Below are positions 30,760 through 44,646 of a DNA stretch of 64,000 bases, one piece after another. This DNA is from Mycolicibacterium anyangense (lineage in GTDB: Bacteria > Actinomycetota > Actinomycetes > Mycobacteriales > Mycobacteriaceae). A program made the translations under genes and the position numbers. Below the pieces are notes generated by a model that saw only the letters and a program-made list of their open reading frames with translations, did not search any database and was not told where the DNA came from. Position 1 is the stretch's first letter, and every line of letters starts with the position of its first letter. The stretch lies in assembly GCF_010731855.1 (NCBI RefSeq), contig NZ_AP022620.1, forward strand, positions 310,001-374,000, written 5' to 3'.

Positions 30760-32046
30760 TCAGGACGGGTCGAAGCTGTACACCTGGCCGGCGCTGGTGG
30801 CGACCACCACCCGCCGGTCATGACCCACCGAGACGCCGACCGGGTAGCCGTCGGCCTGGGGGAGCGGGTACTGCTTGAGCGGGTGGCCGTCGGCGAGATC
30901 GAACGCCAGCAGAGCCAGGCCTGCCGAGGGATCAGGGACCACGGTGTAAGCCACGTCGGCGCCGGCCTGGCTCGAGGTGGCCAACGGTGCGACGTCGTCG
31001 CGGCGCCACTGCACCTCGGCGCGGTCGCCGGCATCCTTGAGCGCGACCAGGTGGGTGTCCGGGCCGCCGCCGGCGACGATGACCCCACCAGGGCCGAGCG
31101 ACGGCGGCGTCTGTGGCTGGAAGCCAAGGCTCACAGACCATTTCACGGTGCCGTCCGAGGCGTTGAGCGCCCATAGCTCGCGATCGCGACCGGTGACGTA
31201 GACGGTCTTGCCGTCAGCGGATAGCACCGGCGCGGCGATCACCCCGGCGGCCACGGCAGCACTGGTCCACGTCTTGGTGATCAGCGGGGTCTGGCCAGGG
31301 TGGTACTGCAGACCGACCAGAGTCGAGGCCTTGGCGCCCGGCTGCCATACGCCGAGCACGATGGTGTTCGTGGCCGCCGAGAAGGCTGGCGGGGCTGAGA
31401 CCGGACATTGCGGCAGCGCCTGCTGGCAGTCGTCGAGGCCGCGGGTGGAATCGGTGGGGTCGAGGCCTTCGACGAGATCCATCGGGGTGCCGCTGACGTC
31501 GCCGCGGTGGCTGTCGAAGACCAGCACCTGGCCGAGGTGGGTCACCACCAGAAGCTGGCCGCCGCCGAGAAACCTTGTGGTGGTGGGCATTCCGATGACA
31601 TTGGTACGCCAGCGAACCCACTGCGTTGGCGGGTAGGACAGCATCAGGCCGGGCTGTCCGATGTAGAGGTTGTCGAATTGGTCGAACAGGGGGCTGGCGA
31701 AGCCGCCCCCGAGGACCATCCGGGTGCACCAGCGCTGGCGGCCGTCGTTGTCGATTTCCCAGACCATCAGCGAACACCCGCCGGCGGTCTGTCCATTGAC
31801 CGCCAGGTAGCTGCCCGACCCCAGGGCGGCACCCGCGTCGAGTGCACCCTTGACCGAGCGGCTCCAGGTCAGCTTCAGGTCCGGGGTGCCCGCGGTCGGG
31901 GTGTAGCTGGTGTTGGCCGCGTCGGCGTACTGGGCGGCCCAGCCCTGAGCCGAGGTGGCATCCACCCACGAATCAGTGGTGGCGCACCCGGCAACCGTGC
32001 TCACCAACAGCGTCGCCGACGCCGACGCGAGCAATCGCCGCAGCAC
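30760..32046 (-). CDS. PQQ-like beta-propeller lipoprotein (Rv3035 type)
   Basis: A 428-residue exported lipoprotein with a lipobox ending in Cys21 (TVAGC). It is built of repeated propeller blades with the PQQ-type pattern: VYVTGRDRELWALNASDGTVKWS and LALLAFDLADGHPLKQYPL are examples of the W-docking type. It probably acts as an extracytoplasmic scaffold or binding protein and no catalytic residues are visible. Only two bases separate its stop from that of the convergent TB22.2-type gene. M. tuberculosis keeps the same arrangement. Confidence 0.88.
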   Translation of the reverse strand: MLRRLLASASATLLVSTVAGCATTDSWVDATSAQGWAAQYADAANTSYTPTAGTPDLKLTWSRSVKGALDAGAALGSGSYLAVNGQTAGGCSLMVWEIDNDGRQRWCTRMVLGGGFASPLFDQFDNLYIGQPGLMLSYPPTQWVRWRTNVIGMPTTTRFLGGGQLLVVTHLGQVLVFDSHRGDVSGTPMDLVEGLDPTDSTRGLDDCQQALPQCPVSAPPAFSAATNTIVLGVWQPGAKASTLVGLQYHPGQTPLITKTWTSAAVAAGVIAAPVLSADGKTVYVTGRDRELWALNASDGTVKWSVSLGFQPQTPPSLGPGGVIVAGGGPDTHLVALKDAGDRAEVQWRRDDVAPLATSSQAGADVAYTVVPDPSAGLALLAFDLADGHPLKQYPLPQADGYPVGVSVGHDRRVVVATSAGQVYSFDPS

Positions 32047-32125
32047 TCCGGTCCTTCCCCTGGGTCGAAACGTGACAGTACAGGCGAGGGTAACCCGTAC
32101 CCGCCCTCGGTTAGGCTCTCAGGCC

Positions 32126-32863
32126 ATGACGACGATGTGGGGCGCGCCGATCCACAAGCGGTGGGCAGGCTCGCGGCTCAGGGATCCCCGCCAGGCCAAG
32201 TTTCTCACCAAGGCGTCGCTGAAATGGGTGATCGCCAACCGGGCCTACACACCCTGGTACCTGGTGCGGTACTGGCGGCTGCTGAAGTTCAAGCTGCAGA
32301 ACCCGCACATCATCACCCGTGGCATGGTGTTTCTCGGCAAGAACGTCGAGATCCACGCCACCCCGGAGCTCGCCCAGCTCGAGATCGGCCGCTGGGTGCA
32401 CATCGGTGACAAGAACACCATCCGGGCGCACGAAGGTTCGCTGCGGTTCGGCGACAAGGTGGTGCTGGGCCGTGACAACGTCATCAACTGCTACCTCGAT
32501 ATCGAGCTCGGTGACTCCGCTCTGATGGCCGACTGGTGCTACGTCTGCGACTTCGACCACAAGATGGACAACATCGAGATGCCGATCAAGGACCAGGGCA
32601 TCATCAAGAGCCCGGTGCGCATCGGCCCGGACACCTGGATCGCCGCCAAGGTGACGATCCTGCGCGGCACCACGATCGGCCGGGGCTGCGTGCTCGGCGC
32701 GCATGCCGTGGTCAAGGGCGACATCCCGGACTTCTCGATCGCCGTGGGCTCGCCTGCCAAGGTCGTCAAGAACCGCAAACTGGCCTGGGAGACCTCAGCT
32801 GCGCAGCGGGCCGAGCTGGCGGCTGCGCTGGCCGACATCGAACGCAAGAAGGCCAGCCACTAA
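32126..32863 (+). CDS. Left-handed beta-helix (hexapeptide) acyltransferase, Rv3034c type
   Basis: A 245-residue enzyme with hexapeptide repeats from about residue 65 to 210 (ISRGMVFLGKNVEIHA-type turns, SLRFGDKVVLGRDNVI, PVRIGPDTWIAAKVTIL, TTIGRGCVLGAHAVVKGDIP), the fold of acetyl/acyltransferases such as WbbJ. A catalytic His is likely in CDFDHKMDN. It sits beside the glucan-synthesis genes Rv3030-3032, and the M. tuberculosis gene is considered part of the methylglucose lipopolysaccharide region, so acylation of that polysaccharide is the likely role. The ATG at 32126 was chosen; the open frame extends to 31955 without homology. Confidence 0.87.
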   Translation: MTTMWGAPIHKRWAGSRLRDPRQAKFLTKASLKWVIANRAYTPWYLVRYWRLLKFKLQNPHIITRGMVFLGKNVEIHATPELAQLEIGRWVHIGDKNTIRAHEGSLRFGDKVVLGRDNVINCYLDIELGDSALMADWCYVCDFDHKMDNIEMPIKDQGIIKSPVRIGPDTWIAAKVTILRGTTIGRGCVLGAHAVVKGDIPDFSIAVGSPAKVVKNRKLAWETSAAQRAELAAALADIERKKASH

Positions 32864-32948: not shown

Positions 32949-33025
32949 CCTGCTCGGCGCGCTTGGCCCGATGTGTGGGGTTCACGGCGTAGACCGCGGC
33001 CGGGGTGTCACTCGATACTGCCGAT

Positions 33026-33394
33026 ATGGCCACTGTCGTCCTTGTCGTCGTCGGCGTGTTCTTCCTGGGGATGGGTCTCTACGGTCTGGTTGCGCCGGCC
33101 AGCCTCGTCGCACCGTTCGGCATCACGCTTGACCGCTCGGTGGCGCGCGCCGAGGTACGTGCGGTCTACGGCGGCTTCGGTGTCGCGATCGCGGGCGTGC
33201 TCGGCTACGGGCTGCTGCATCCGCCGCTGCGAACCGGCATCGTGCTCACCGTCGCGCTCGCGTTGGCCGGGATGGCCCTCGGTCGGGTGGTCTCCACGCT
33301 GTGCGGCGACCGAACGTCCTTCTACCCCAACTGGTTCTACTGCCTGGTCGAGATCGTTGCGGCCGCCGCTCTGATGCTGATCGTGTCGCCCTGA
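33026..33394 (+). CDS. Small DUF4345-like membrane protein
   Basis: A 122-residue protein with four predicted membrane helices, at residues about 3-22, 48-65, 70-90 and 100-120. It contains the DUF4345-like segment ARAEVRAVYGGFGVAIA after the first helix. The ATG at 33026 is preferred; a GTG at 33005 is in frame. Function unknown. It occupies the place where M. tuberculosis has Rv3033, but the two do not look related, so this is a lineage-specific replacement. Confidence 0.75.
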   Translation: MATVVLVVVGVFFLGMGLYGLVAPASLVAPFGITLDRSVARAEVRAVYGGFGVAIAGVLGYGLLHPPLRTGIVLTVALALAGMALGRVVSTLCGDRTSFYPNWFYCLVEIVAAAALMLIVSP

Positions 33395-33676
33395 TCTCCT
33401 GGCACCGACGATGACGCGGTCCCAGCCGCTCGTGCTGCAGCTAAGTGGTCGGGATGCTAGTGGTCGTCTCTCCTGCCGAAAAGAGATTGCTGGACAGTGC
33501 TTTTGGAACGTGTTCTTGTGAGTTCGCCCATGCGGGTCTGAACTTGGCAAAGAATGGTAATTGACTGCGAATGCGCTGAACGGTGCCCTTTTTGGATAGT
33601 TCCTCATGCAAAGGTGTGGCTATATGTCGGATTGCCGCAATGGTTGCGGCATTCCGGAGAGAGGTTGGGGAGCTCG
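33395..33676 (+). promoter_or_regulatory. AT-richer leader region of the beta-roll protein gene, with hairpin
   Basis: This 282-base gap holds no gene that I can support and reads as clearly less GC-rich than its surroundings. It contains a perfect hairpin (TGCCGCAA-TGG-TTGCGGCA) at 33633-33651, ending 25 bases before the start codon, and a ribosome-binding GGGGAG at about 33667. A TATATG-like -10 element lies near 33621. The hairpin could control translation; no known riboswitch was recognised. Confidence 0.4.
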
Positions 33677-34858
33677 ATGCAAGGGTTTGGTGGGTGGACG
33701 GCGTCCACGCGTGATCGCGTGATTCGGATCGGATTGTTGGCGCTGGGGGGTGCGGCGTGTGCGACGACATTCGGAACGGCGGCATTGGGTTCGGCGGCGC
33801 CGGCGCGTGCGGACGGGTGTATCGCGTTTGGGAATGTCAACCTGCACAGCGGGTCCTCGACATGTTCCGCGACTGGGATGGGTGCGCTCGCGGTGGCCTT
33901 CGGCTACGACAGTTCGGCCACGGCCAGTGGTCTGTTCAGCGGAGCGTGGGCGATCGGCGTCAACAGCTCTGCGACCGCCGGAGGTGGCTCGGCGGACGAG
34001 GCGATCGCGGTGGGCAATGGCTCTACTGCCACCGCCTACAACGCGACTTCACCGGCCGGCAATCTCGATTGGGCGACGGCGATCGGCGCTGATTCGACCG
34101 CCCAGGCCTACGGTGGTGACTTCAACCGGGCGACCGCCGTCGGCTACTACAACGCTGCGTCCGCCTACGGCGGCACCCACGACATCGCCACGGTCATCGA
34201 AGCCGGATGGGATGGATCGGCAACGGCGACGGGCGGCAACAACAACCGCGCCGTGAACATCCTTTCGCCTGCGGGGTATTACAGCGAGGCTGACGCCGAG
34301 AATGGCAACAACAACCTGGCTCTCCAGTTCCTCACCGGAGGTTACGAACCCTTCACGGAGGCCGACAGCGGCAACTTCAACACCGCCCTGAACTTCTTGA
34401 CCGGCGGTTACTACTCGTATGCGGAGGCCAACCACGGGGACAACAATGTCGCCATCGCCGCACTGGGTGGAGGCGACGAGGCAGGCGCCGATGCTTATAA
34501 CGGTAACGGCAACTGGGCCATCGAGACTGGCGACAGCGAAGCGACTGCGGCAGCCGGAAACTACAACCATGCCTTCGCGCGCGGGAACAACAACTATGCC
34601 TACGCCCAGAACGGTAACCACAATCTCGCGATCGTGGCCGGTACGGACAGCTCCGCCACGGCCAGTGGCGGCGACTACAACCGCGCCTGGGGGCACGGAT
34701 TCAAGAATGTCGTGACCGCCGGCGCAACTGGTGATCAGCCGGTGTCCAGCCACAACTCGGCCGTTGCGGTCGGCAATCTGAACACCGTGACCGCCGGGCC
34801 GGGCGACAACAACCATGTCGGGGTTGTCGGTAACGCCAAGACCGTACACAACCCGTAG
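33677..34858 (+). CDS. Secreted repeat protein with YadA-head-like beta-roll
   Basis: A 393-residue protein from an ATG at 33677, with GGGGAG just upstream. Residues 1-45 are a signal peptide (hydrophobic LLALGGAACATTFG, cleavage ARA/DG). The rest is about 16 imperfect repeats of 18-23 residues following xxAxAxGxxSxAxAxGGxxN, for example WATAIGADSTAQAYGGDFN and RATAVGYYNAASAYGGTHD. This is the pattern of left-handed beta-rolls in YadA/Hia heads. There is no coiled-coil stalk, beta-barrel anchor, LPxTG or membrane tail, and no Cys pair besides two near the N-terminus. It ends in a strong terminator. The role is unknown; surface adhesion or matrix are possibilities. Confidence 0.85.
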   Translation: MQGFGGWTASTRDRVIRIGLLALGGAACATTFGTAALGSAAPARADGCIAFGNVNLHSGSSTCSATGMGALAVAFGYDSSATASGLFSGAWAIGVNSSATAGGGSADEAIAVGNGSTATAYNATSPAGNLDWATAIGADSTAQAYGGDFNRATAVGYYNAASAYGGTHDIATVIEAGWDGSATATGGNNNRAVNILSPAGYYSEADAENGNNNLALQFLTGGYEPFTEADSGNFNTALNFLTGGYYSYAEANHGDNNVAIAALGGGDEAGADAYNGNGNWAIETGDSEATAAAGNYNHAFARGNNNYAYAQNGNHNLAIVAGTDSSATASGGDYNRAWGHGFKNVVTAGATGDQPVSSHNSAVAVGNLNTVTAGPGDNNHVGVVGNAKTVHNP

Positions 34859-34869
34859 CAGCCACCGGA

Positions 34870-34903
34870 GTCCTTCCTACCCGCGATTGCGGGTGGGAAG
34901 GAC
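34870..34903 (+). terminator. Strong hairpin terminator after the beta-roll gene
   Basis: A 15-bp stem (one T-G wobble) with a 4-base GATT loop begins 12 bases after the stop codon. The stem starts GTCCTTCC and ends GGAAGGAC. It is followed by TTCGTTGTCGTGT. Being symmetric, it may also end transcription of the convergent glycosyltransferase operon that stops at 34921. Confidence 0.75.
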
Positions 34904-34920
34904 TTCGTTGTCGTGTCTGG

Positions 34921-36159
34921 TCAGTCCGAACGGCCGGGCAGCGCGTGCTCGACGATCGGCCGGCGCGGCTGCGGGATGCGTTCTCGGCGCTTGGCCGCCA
35001 GATACACCTGAGCGGTCTGGCTGGCCACGGTGTGCCAGTCGAAATCCGAGGTGAGTCGCGCGCGAGCGGCGACGGCACGCTGTTGGGCCGCCTGCGGATC
35101 GTCGAGCACACTGCGCACCGCAGCGGCCAGCGCGGCGACATCGCGCGGCGGGCAGGACATCCCGGTCTGGCCACTGATCACTGCCTCACCCAGACCACCC
35201 GCGGTGGAAGTCACCAGCGGGATGCCGGCCGCGGCCGCCTCCAGCGCGACGATCCCGAACGGCTCGTAGTGACTGGGCAGCACCGCGACGTCGGCGCGGT
35301 GTAGCAGGTGCAGCAGCTGGTCGTGGTCGACGCGACCGACGAACTGAACAGCCTTGAGCACCTTGTGCTTTCGCGCTACCTCTATCAGCCACTCCTGCTG
35401 CGTACCATCGCCGGCCACGGTCAAGGTGGTGCCTGGGTGGGCGCGACGGATGCGCGGCAGCGCTGCGATCGCCTCGTGGACACCCTTCTCGTATTCCAGC
35501 CGCCCGAAGAACAGCAGTTCGGCCGGCCCGTCGTGACGGCGCCGGGGCGCGAACGGCCAACGACTGGAATCGATCCCGTTGCAGATGACGCTGATCTCGG
35601 CCAGGCCTGGCCCGAACAGGTCGGAGATCTCCTCCGACATGGACGCCGAGCAGGCGATCAGTGAGTCCGATTCGCGGACAAACCAGGACTCGATGGCATG
35701 CACCTGGCGGCTGATCTTGCCCGACACCCACCCCGAATGCCGGCCCGCTTCGGTGGCATGCACGGTGGAAACCATGGGTACATCGAAGAATTCGGCCAAG
35801 GCGATGGCGGGATGGGCAACCAACCAGTCATGGGCATGCACCACATCGGGTTGCCAGCCCTTGGCGTGCAGGGTCAGCCCCGCGCGGACCATCGAGTGGC
35901 CCATCGCCAGCGTCCAGGCCATCAGGTCGCGGCCGAAGTCGAATTCGTGCGGATCCTGGGCGGCGGCGATCACGCGCACACCCTCGTGGACTTCGTCGGT
36001 GGTGGGGTGCGTATACGGGTCGGTGCCGGTGGGCCGACGCGAGAGCACCACCACCTCGTGGCCGTCGGCGGCCAGCGCCGTGGCCAGGTGGTGGACGTGC
36101 CGGCCGAGGCCGCCGATCACCACCGGCGGGTACTCCCACGACACCATCAGGATCTTCAT
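34921..36159 (-). CDS. GT4 alpha-1,4-glucosyltransferase (Rv3032 type)
   Basis: A 412-residue glycosyltransferase with the glycogen-synthase-like N-terminus MKILMVSWEYPPVVIGGLG and the retaining GT4 Glu-x7-Glu motif EPFGIVALE near residue 310. M. tuberculosis Rv3032 elongates the glucan backbone of 6-O-methylglucose lipopolysaccharide (MGLP) and contributes to glycogen. The ATG at 36159 overlaps the stop of the GH57 gene (ATGA), so the earlier open frame to 36675 is not used. The gene is the last of a three-gene coupled operon. Confidence 0.95.
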   Translation of the reverse strand: MKILMVSWEYPPVVIGGLGRHVHHLATALAADGHEVVVLSRRPTGTDPYTHPTTDEVHEGVRVIAAAQDPHEFDFGRDLMAWTLAMGHSMVRAGLTLHAKGWQPDVVHAHDWLVAHPAIALAEFFDVPMVSTVHATEAGRHSGWVSGKISRQVHAIESWFVRESDSLIACSASMSEEISDLFGPGLAEISVICNGIDSSRWPFAPRRRHDGPAELLFFGRLEYEKGVHEAIAALPRIRRAHPGTTLTVAGDGTQQEWLIEVARKHKVLKAVQFVGRVDHDQLLHLLHRADVAVLPSHYEPFGIVALEAAAAGIPLVTSTAGGLGEAVISGQTGMSCPPRDVAALAAAVRSVLDDPQAAQQRAVAARARLTSDFDWHTVASQTAQVYLAAKRRERIPQPRRPIVEHALPGRSD

Positions 36160-43567: not shown

Positions 43568-44646
43568 GGGTGCTGGCCGCGATGAGCGGCGGGGTGGATT
43601 CGTCGGTCGCCGCCGCACGCATGGTCGACGCCGGCCACGAGGTGGTCGGTGTGCACCTCGCGCTGTCCAGCGCGCCTGGTGCACTGCGGACCGGCTCGCG
43701 CGGCTGCTGTTCGCGCGAGGACGCCGGTGACGCCCGTCGGGTGGCCGATGTCCTCGGAATACCTTTCTATGTCTGGGATTTCGCCGACCAGTTCAAGCAG
43801 GATGTGATCGACGATTTCGTCGAGTCCTATGCCCGCGGTGAAACACCGAACCCGTGCGTGCGGTGCAACGAGAAGATCAAGTTCTCTGCGCTGGCGGCCA
43901 GGGCCCTGGCGCTGGGCTTCGATGCGGTGGCCACCGGCCATTACGCGCGGCTCGAACACGGCCGGTTGCGTCGCGCCGTGGACGCCGACAAGGACCAGTC
44001 CTATGTGTTGGCCGTGCTGACCGCCACCCAACTGCGCCACGCCTTGTTCCCGATCGGTGACACCCCCAAGCCGCAGATCCGTGACGAGGCCGCCGAGCGC
44101 GGCCTGCCGGTGGCCCGCAAGGCCGATAGCCACGACATCTGCTTCATCCCGTCCGGGGACACCCGCGCCTTCCTGGGTGCCCGCATCGGCGTGCGCCGCG
44201 GGGCCGTGGTGGATGCCGGCGGCACCGTGCTCGCCGAGCACGATGGCGTGCACGGCTTCACCATCGGTCAGCGCAAGGGTCTCGGTATCGCCGGTCCCGG
44301 TCCGGACGGCGCACCGCGCTATGTCACCGAGATCGACGCCGACACCCAGACCGTGCGGGTCGGCGCGGCCGCCGATCTGCAAACCTGGGCCCTGACCGGC
44401 AAGCAGCCGGTGTTCACCTCCGGTGTGGCACCGCAGGGTCCGGTGGAGTGCGAGGTGCAGGTGCGCGCCCACGGCGGCATCGTGCCCGCGGTGGCCGAAC
44501 TGGTCGGGGAGGATGTGCAGGTGAGGCTGCGGGCTCCGTTGAACGGGGTGGCTGCTGGCCAGACGCTGGTGCTCTACCGGCCCGATCCGGCCGGCGACGA
44601 GGTCATCGGCAGCGCCACGATCGTCAACCGATCGCAATCCTGCTGA
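43564..44646 (+). CDS. mnmA: tRNA 2-thiouridylase MnmA
   Basis: A 360-residue enzyme that adds the 2-thio group to the wobble uridine of Lys, Glu and Gln tRNAs. The N-terminal PP-loop for ATP reads [12 protein letters not shown] (residues 6-17). The catalytic cysteines are Cys98 (NPCVRCN) and Cys193 ([10 protein letters not shown]), and the [11 protein letters not shown] region is also typical. The ATG at 43564 overlaps the iscS stop; the longer open frame upstream (43345) is not used. It is named trmU/mnmA in M. tuberculosis (Rv3024c). Confidence 0.97.

Follow-up and report, generated by a model that had tools for sequence, protein, structure and literature searches.

What is a secreted-looking protein, made almost wholly of repeats like those of trimeric autotransporter heads, doing in a mycobacterium? 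Little is known of how mycobacteria construct protein fibres and adhesive layers beyond their unusual outer membrane. The question is raised by an open reading frame at 33677-34858 (+) of the window, the 64,000-nucleotide stretch of Mycolicibacterium anyangense DNA analysed here. A sequence-only reading had seen in it a secreted YadA-head-like protein of about 16 repeats without an anchor, encoded by an independent unit between a low-GC leader and a strong terminator.

The open reading frame is genuine and encodes 393 residues; we refer to the product as the roll protein, after the fold proposed below. A mechanical list of frames starts it upstream, at 33554, but we favour 33677: the signal peptide begins at that point, in agreement with the paralogues, and a GGGGAG closely precedes it. 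GC content by codon position is 0.589, 0.574 and 0.777, compared with 0.591, 0.433 and 0.911 in the neighbouring acyltransferase gene. We attribute the high value at the second position to Ala/Gly content (the mature part, residues 46-393, is 19.3% Ala, 15.8% Gly and 12.1% Asn); the lower one at the third is mildly odd. No tandem array was found in the gene at the DNA level. The protein divides into four parts:

33677..33811 (+): signal peptide, residues 1-45, from inspection and alignment with paralogue N termini; putative cleavage after ARA
33812..33886 (+): N-terminal cap (N-cap) with Cys48 and Cys63 (Cys-x14-Cys), a putative disulfide staple; both Cys present in all 19 N-cap segments compared
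33887..34753 (+): predicted beta-roll body of 19-22-residue coils, NxA[IT]AxGxx[SN]xAxAxxGxx, from periodicity and a unit model
34754..34855 (+): C-terminal cap (C-cap), residues 360-393, with TVTAGPG; kept in the paralogue group and partly in all four other rows of alignment A1

The only Cys besides the cap pair is residue 28, in the signal peptide. By inspection the protein lacks a lipobox, any LPXTG-like motif, a membrane tail and a barrel, and its last 40 residues have a charge of 0. Searches against Pfam (to E=10, with strict hmmscan filters that may hide weak matches), NCBIfam, PHROG and PDB sequences gave zero matches; in profile searches of solved structures, alignment A1 gave one chance match (E=0.95) and alignment A3 none. 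Pfam to E=10 likewise gave no match to a coiled-coil stalk or a C-terminal YadA anchor, and the frame ends at the C-cap. There is no room for an anchor further 3', because the stop and a hairpin are followed by a convergent glycosyltransferase gene ending at 34921. The absence of stalk and anchor proposed earlier is thus upheld.

The repeats are well supported. Self-identity peaks at lags 44, 19 and 22 (z 5.8, 5.3 and 3.8), and aligning one half of the protein with the other scores 154, where 500 shuffles gave 63.5 +/- 10.1 and a maximum of 100. Strand-like motifs of the form [AVIF]x[AVIFT]x[GN] number 28; in 1000 shuffles the mean is 11.2 +/- 2.7 and the count never exceeds 21. With its signal peptide (by inspection) and a periodicity in self-alignment far above shuffles, the frame is therefore what it had been taken for, a repeat-only protein of secreted type.

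A 19-column unit model, built on 132 sites from 13 window-like proteins, has the consensus N1 x A3 [IT]4 A5 x G7 x x [SN]10 x A12 x A14 x x G17 x x, with T or S frequent at positions 11 and 13. Neighbouring sites less than 32 residues apart are spaced by 19 in 56 of 91 pairs. Position 1 is Asn in 75% of the 132 units, in line with the Asn ladder suggested from the letters alone. Twelve coils of the roll protein fit the model, and those at residues 194-278 are atypical against the consensus. At 19-22 residues per coil its 348 residues would hold about 16-18 coils, an estimate and not an exact count; the earlier figure of about 16 is plausible by length, therefore, while the model fits 12. In the 12 aligned coils the Kyte-Doolittle mean is +1.17 at positions 2, 4 and 6 and -0.92 at positions 11 and 13 (p=0.006), the outward side of each strand being assumed; position 2 taken alone is polar (-0.76).

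We looked for relatives at increasing depth. With the roll protein as query, phmmer, which scored the 8000 best candidates, gave three weak relatives at E<=0.001, one of them with a PE domain. A scan of named genome contigs confirmed no relative with the roll protein as query and one, in Mycobacterium sp. M26, with alignment A2. Profile searches gave at least 23 relatives with alignment A1 and at least 21 with alignment A5, among the best ~8000 scored. A five-member profile matches in 109 of 396 genus genomes, and a 19-segment N-cap profile in 139 of 396 (122 of the 361 of good quality), so the roll protein does not stand alone; at this sensitivity the Cys-capped family is absent from most of the sampled genus genomes. 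Copy numbers are minima, counted among the best 4 to 12 candidates scored per genome. Eight of 396 genomes in a phylum sample match the N-cap profile, three of them (G492, G577 and G735) outside the genus, with values of 5.6e-8, 1.9e-7 and 1.0e-4; the frame of the third match contains a stop. Two phylum genomes outside the genus carry Cys-capped rolls, at L131:1390-2325 (+) and L132:1072-1941 (+).

The M. anyangense genome itself has at least five copies, namely the window gene and genes at C1:3712299, 1810003, 2419498 and 5041970, the last three as N-cap profile matches; the profile matches the roll gene at 1.6e-21, the gene being one of its own 19 rows. The paralogue at C1:3712299 is 43% identical to the roll protein. 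With the roll protein as query, 10 of 356 genus genomes, its own included, match at E<=1e-8, and none of the ten contributes an obvious orthologue; outside M. anyangense the best match, at 54% identity over 118 residues, is the orthologue of the C1:3712299 paralogue in G307. We conclude that the roll gene is a diverged paralogue within a large mycobacterial family, and that within the sampled genus genomes it is lineage-specific. The family is unnamed, as no Pfam or NCBIfam model matches the roll above cut-off in the scanned proteins. Among the titles and the beginnings of abstracts listed in a search of openly available journal papers, none describes it. DUF6764 (PF20550) was considered as a name, L131, from outside the genus, scoring 26.2 bits, just short of its cut-off of 27. 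We rejected it: our genome has no match at E<=0.1, 60 genus genomes have none above cut-off, and none of the 11 listed sub-cut-off genus matches falls at a listed family position.

Family anatomy was compared in 68 non-identical frames that have both start and stop codons and match the N-cap at E<=1e-5, leaving out exact duplicates and frames cut by the locus; many are mutual orthologues, and some starts lie too far upstream. Within lags of 10 to 30, the highest peak falls at 18-20 residues in 55 of the 68, though some of these and some of the other members have only low peaks (z about 2-3); for the roll protein it falls at 19 (z 5.9). Exactly two Cys occur from the N-cap match onward in 55 of the 68. 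Of 64 segments found by pattern, 58 have a Cys spacing of 11, four of 14 and two of 12. Another 17 proteins did not fit the pattern; the roll protein is one of them, owing to the wording of the pattern or the choice of start. The roll protein has the family's signal peptide, Cys-x(11-14)-Cys, A.A.G repeats and C-cap. It differs at the C terminus: the last 40 residues carry a net charge of +4 or more in 56 of the 68 members, a tail that the roll protein lacks. These tails are rich in Lys, Arg, Ser and Ala (L029 and L032 are examples), and could bind anionic wall polymers.

Most members have the roll behind a signal-peptide-like N terminus. In three genes (P0001, L016 and L145) a PE domain precedes it, and the P0001 roll as query finds matches in 21 of 198 genus genomes. 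A PPE domain precedes it in three others, of which L174 was named by domain scan (PF00823, E=1.4e-57) and L175 and L176 by an N-terminal sequence nearly the same as that of L174. These are long PPE-type proteins with a roll-related C-terminal part:

L174:227-5047 (-): PPE-type protein, 1607 residues, roll of period 24
L176:5515-11208 (-): PPE-type protein, 1897 residues, the longest PPE form observed, roll of period 24
L175:1473-5712 (+): PPE-type protein, running off its contig

Compared as profiles, the Cys-type cap and the Cys-free caps that occur in PE, PPE and some Sec forms match (98.6%, E=1e-15), an alignment owed in part to the repeats that both profiles contain. In the PE- and PPE-fused rolls scanned, Pfam names the PE (PF00934) or PPE (PF00823) domain and leaves the roll unnamed. 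The likeness to PE and PPE proteins is thus limited to the few family members with a related roll behind such a domain; the roll protein has a signal peptide instead, and Pfam finds neither domain in it. The picture that emerges, and that the first reading did not contain, is of a large family in mycobacteria, marked by a cap whose Cys pair is conserved; most of the complete relatives compared have a candidate attachment element (a basic tail or, in a few, a PE or PPE domain), and the roll protein has none.

The neighbours of the roll gene, in window coordinates, are:

30760-32046 (-): PQQ-type gene
32123-32863 (+): hexapeptide acyltransferase
33005..33394 (+): DUF4345 gene (PF14248, E=1.4e-20), sharing the slot with the roll gene
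33633..33651 (+): 8-bp hairpin stem in the low-GC leader, read from the sequence
34866..34907 (+): 19-bp hairpin 3' of the roll gene stop, a probable terminator between convergent genes, from fold statistics
34921-36159 (-): GT4 glycosyltransferase, convergent to the roll gene

Past the glycosyltransferase lie a GH57 branching-enzyme-like gene and a methyltransferase. These surroundings, which we match by presumption to the names Rv3030-Rv3035, fit the methylglucose lipopolysaccharide (MGLP) region. The leader does have a low GC content (0.553, against 0.664 for the window) and the 8-bp stem, but as a whole (33440-33690) its folding is unremarkable (z -1.16; 26 of 200 shuffles equalled it in stability). 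A consensus scan listed no promoter and one terminator-like site, at 33573-33586 in the leader, with 1.2 expected by chance. The 3' hairpin is very stable (-44.4 kcal/mol over 76 nt, z -6.77, 0 of 200 shuffles as stable); as a strong terminator it is less complete, lacking a T tract and a place among the scan's terminator sites. Rfam gave a single chance-level match in 33000-35300.

The acyltransferase gene is present in all 60 genomes examined, and we compared what follows it, over at most 1.5 kb, at 29 loci other than our own (one with 346 bases only). Neither the DUF4345 gene nor the roll gene follows it at any of the 29, consistent with an insertion in the MGLP region, with the qualification that at 14 the glycosyltransferase lies outside the stretch and the slot's content cannot be judged. 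At the other 15 the glycosyltransferase is visible, 11 to 1178 bases from the acyltransferase match. A secreted DUF1942-type frame, which we take to be MPT63-type, fills the slot at five loci (L097, L098, L099, L101 and L102; at L097:2341-2823 (+), PF09167 E=3.6e-46). All five are among the seven closest relatives (L097-L103, acyltransferase 94.6-95.4% identical); of the remaining two, L100 has another secreted-looking frame and L103 a 38-base gap. From these contents we conclude that the slot is variable and takes differing exported-protein genes. The relatives' DUF4345 copies sit elsewhere in their genomes. As tblastn of phage and plasmid collections gave no match at E<=1e-5, a phage or plasmid origin of the gene was rejected.

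Is the roll, then, a YadA head? YadA_head (PF05658) scores at best 16.2 bits in the roll gene, where its cut-off is 25. Searched to E=10 in the whole 5.7-Mb genome, the model gives six matches: two in the roll gene, two in the paralogue, one in a third family gene (C1:1810123) and one elsewhere. A PF05658 match at window 43897-43947 belongs to an unrelated frame, presumably a tRNA thiouridylase. Five family-rich genomes (G307, G318, G264, G336 and G159) gave 36 matches, at least 23 of them in family genes as judged by comparing coordinates by eye with the family listings, and five genomes without a family match (G001, G002, G006, G010 and G011) gave 6. Family genes hold at least 28 of 42 matches in the six family genomes and at least 28 of 48 in all eleven, a concentration to which Ala/Gly-rich composition may contribute. 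The best match of the ten further genomes (0.034, in G159) lies outside the listed family genes. No match in the eleven genomes passes the cut-off, which matches in a control genome do pass under the same search. Ala/Gly-rich repeats can match one another by composition.

The likeness extends to layout: two short strands per coil, a fixed Asn, Gly turns, a small or aliphatic core and an exported repeat domain. Trimeric autotransporter heads are left-handed parallel beta-rolls. By the head description in PMC9543794, the layers of BpaC are 14 residues long, with Gly invariant at position 8 and an Asn chain at position 3, and one head has mostly 15-residue layers. Compared with the BpaC layer so described, the roll unit is longer in both strands and one turn, giving 19; it does have, by sequence, a fixed Asn position able to stack. 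The roll protein also has a Cys-pair cap and an actinobacterial host, and is without stalk or anchor. We judge the family's likeness to YadA heads weak but specific, and on sequence grounds call it YadA-head-like and not a member, because every match stays below the cut-off and a coil takes 19 residues (to 22 in the roll protein), not 14. The signature claimed in the sequence-only reading survives in that reduced form.

These comparisons bear on what else the protein could be. That it is a true, divergent YadA_head without stalk and barrel, arrived for example by Gram-negative transfer, draws on the concentration of PF05658 matches in the family and the comparable N...G and S/N.A.A strands; we consider it distinctly unlikely, given the sub-cut-off scores beside a control that exceeds it, the coil length, a Cys cap without counterpart in the passages on such heads consulted (PMC9543794), and a wide paralogue family in one genus, which fits poorly with recent transfer. 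A low-complexity Ala/Gly/Asn protein with no defined fold would account for the composition and the atypical middle coils, yet is unlikely when register, caps and Cys pair are all kept across divergent relatives.

Two other solenoids deserve mention. Flat, Ala-packed solenoids include ice-binding proteins, and the T or S common at positions 11 and 13 could form the outward T-x-T arrays of an ice- or mineral-binding surface; S/T occupies both positions in only 5 of the 12 aligned coils, however, with D, E, Q, Y, F or A in the rest, and such a function is very improbable. The lag-9 peak (z 3.5), a motif spacing of 9-10 residues and the acidic residues in some turns recall a calcium-binding RTX roll, in which each coil likewise comprises about two half-repeats, nine or ten residues long. 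The RTX nonapeptide has a calcium-binding turn with Asp, which the roll consensus lacks, and Pfam to E=10 gives no RTX match (its filters may hide weak ones), so that this origin for the two half-repeats seems extremely improbable.

We therefore favour a Cys-capped mycobacterial roll, and regard its family membership, secretion and beta-roll fold class as probable. The fold and the self-association are inferred from the sequence. The protein would leave the cell by Sec export, and Cys48 and Cys63 would form a disulfide closing the top of a narrow, two-sheet beta-solenoid, Ala-packed at positions 3, 5, 12 and 14 and lined by an Asn/Ser ladder at positions 1 and 10. With hydrophobic residues at outer positions 4 and 6 of strand 1 and polar ones at outer positions 11 and 13 of strand 2, the solenoid probably self-associates through one face; association would resemble that of trimeric autotransporter heads and leave the polar face exposed. 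Because it has no basic tail and no PE or PPE domain, the roll protein is probably released, or loosely held around the mycomembrane by self-association. There it might act as a soluble adhesin or matrix component, a role that we put forward tentatively.

We suggest, with similar reserve, that mycobacteria may own a counterpart of trimeric autotransporter heads: a 19-24-residue beta-roll with a disulfide or Cys-free cap behind Sec, PE or PPE leaders, giving soluble, tail-tethered and type-VII-exported fibres of up to ~1900 residues on or around the mycomembrane. Many PE and PPE proteins have C-terminal parts of open function. With the roll module recurring behind all three leaders, the roll protein offers a small, soluble member in which the family's fold, oligomer state and binding can be tested.

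Family genes also occur in tandem, four in L142 and two each in L138, L139 and L143. Two Sec-type rolls without the cap Cys pair, at L178:1229-3718 (+) and L179:2738-4978 (-), are 829 and 746 residues long and have a very regular period of 19 (z 20 and 16).
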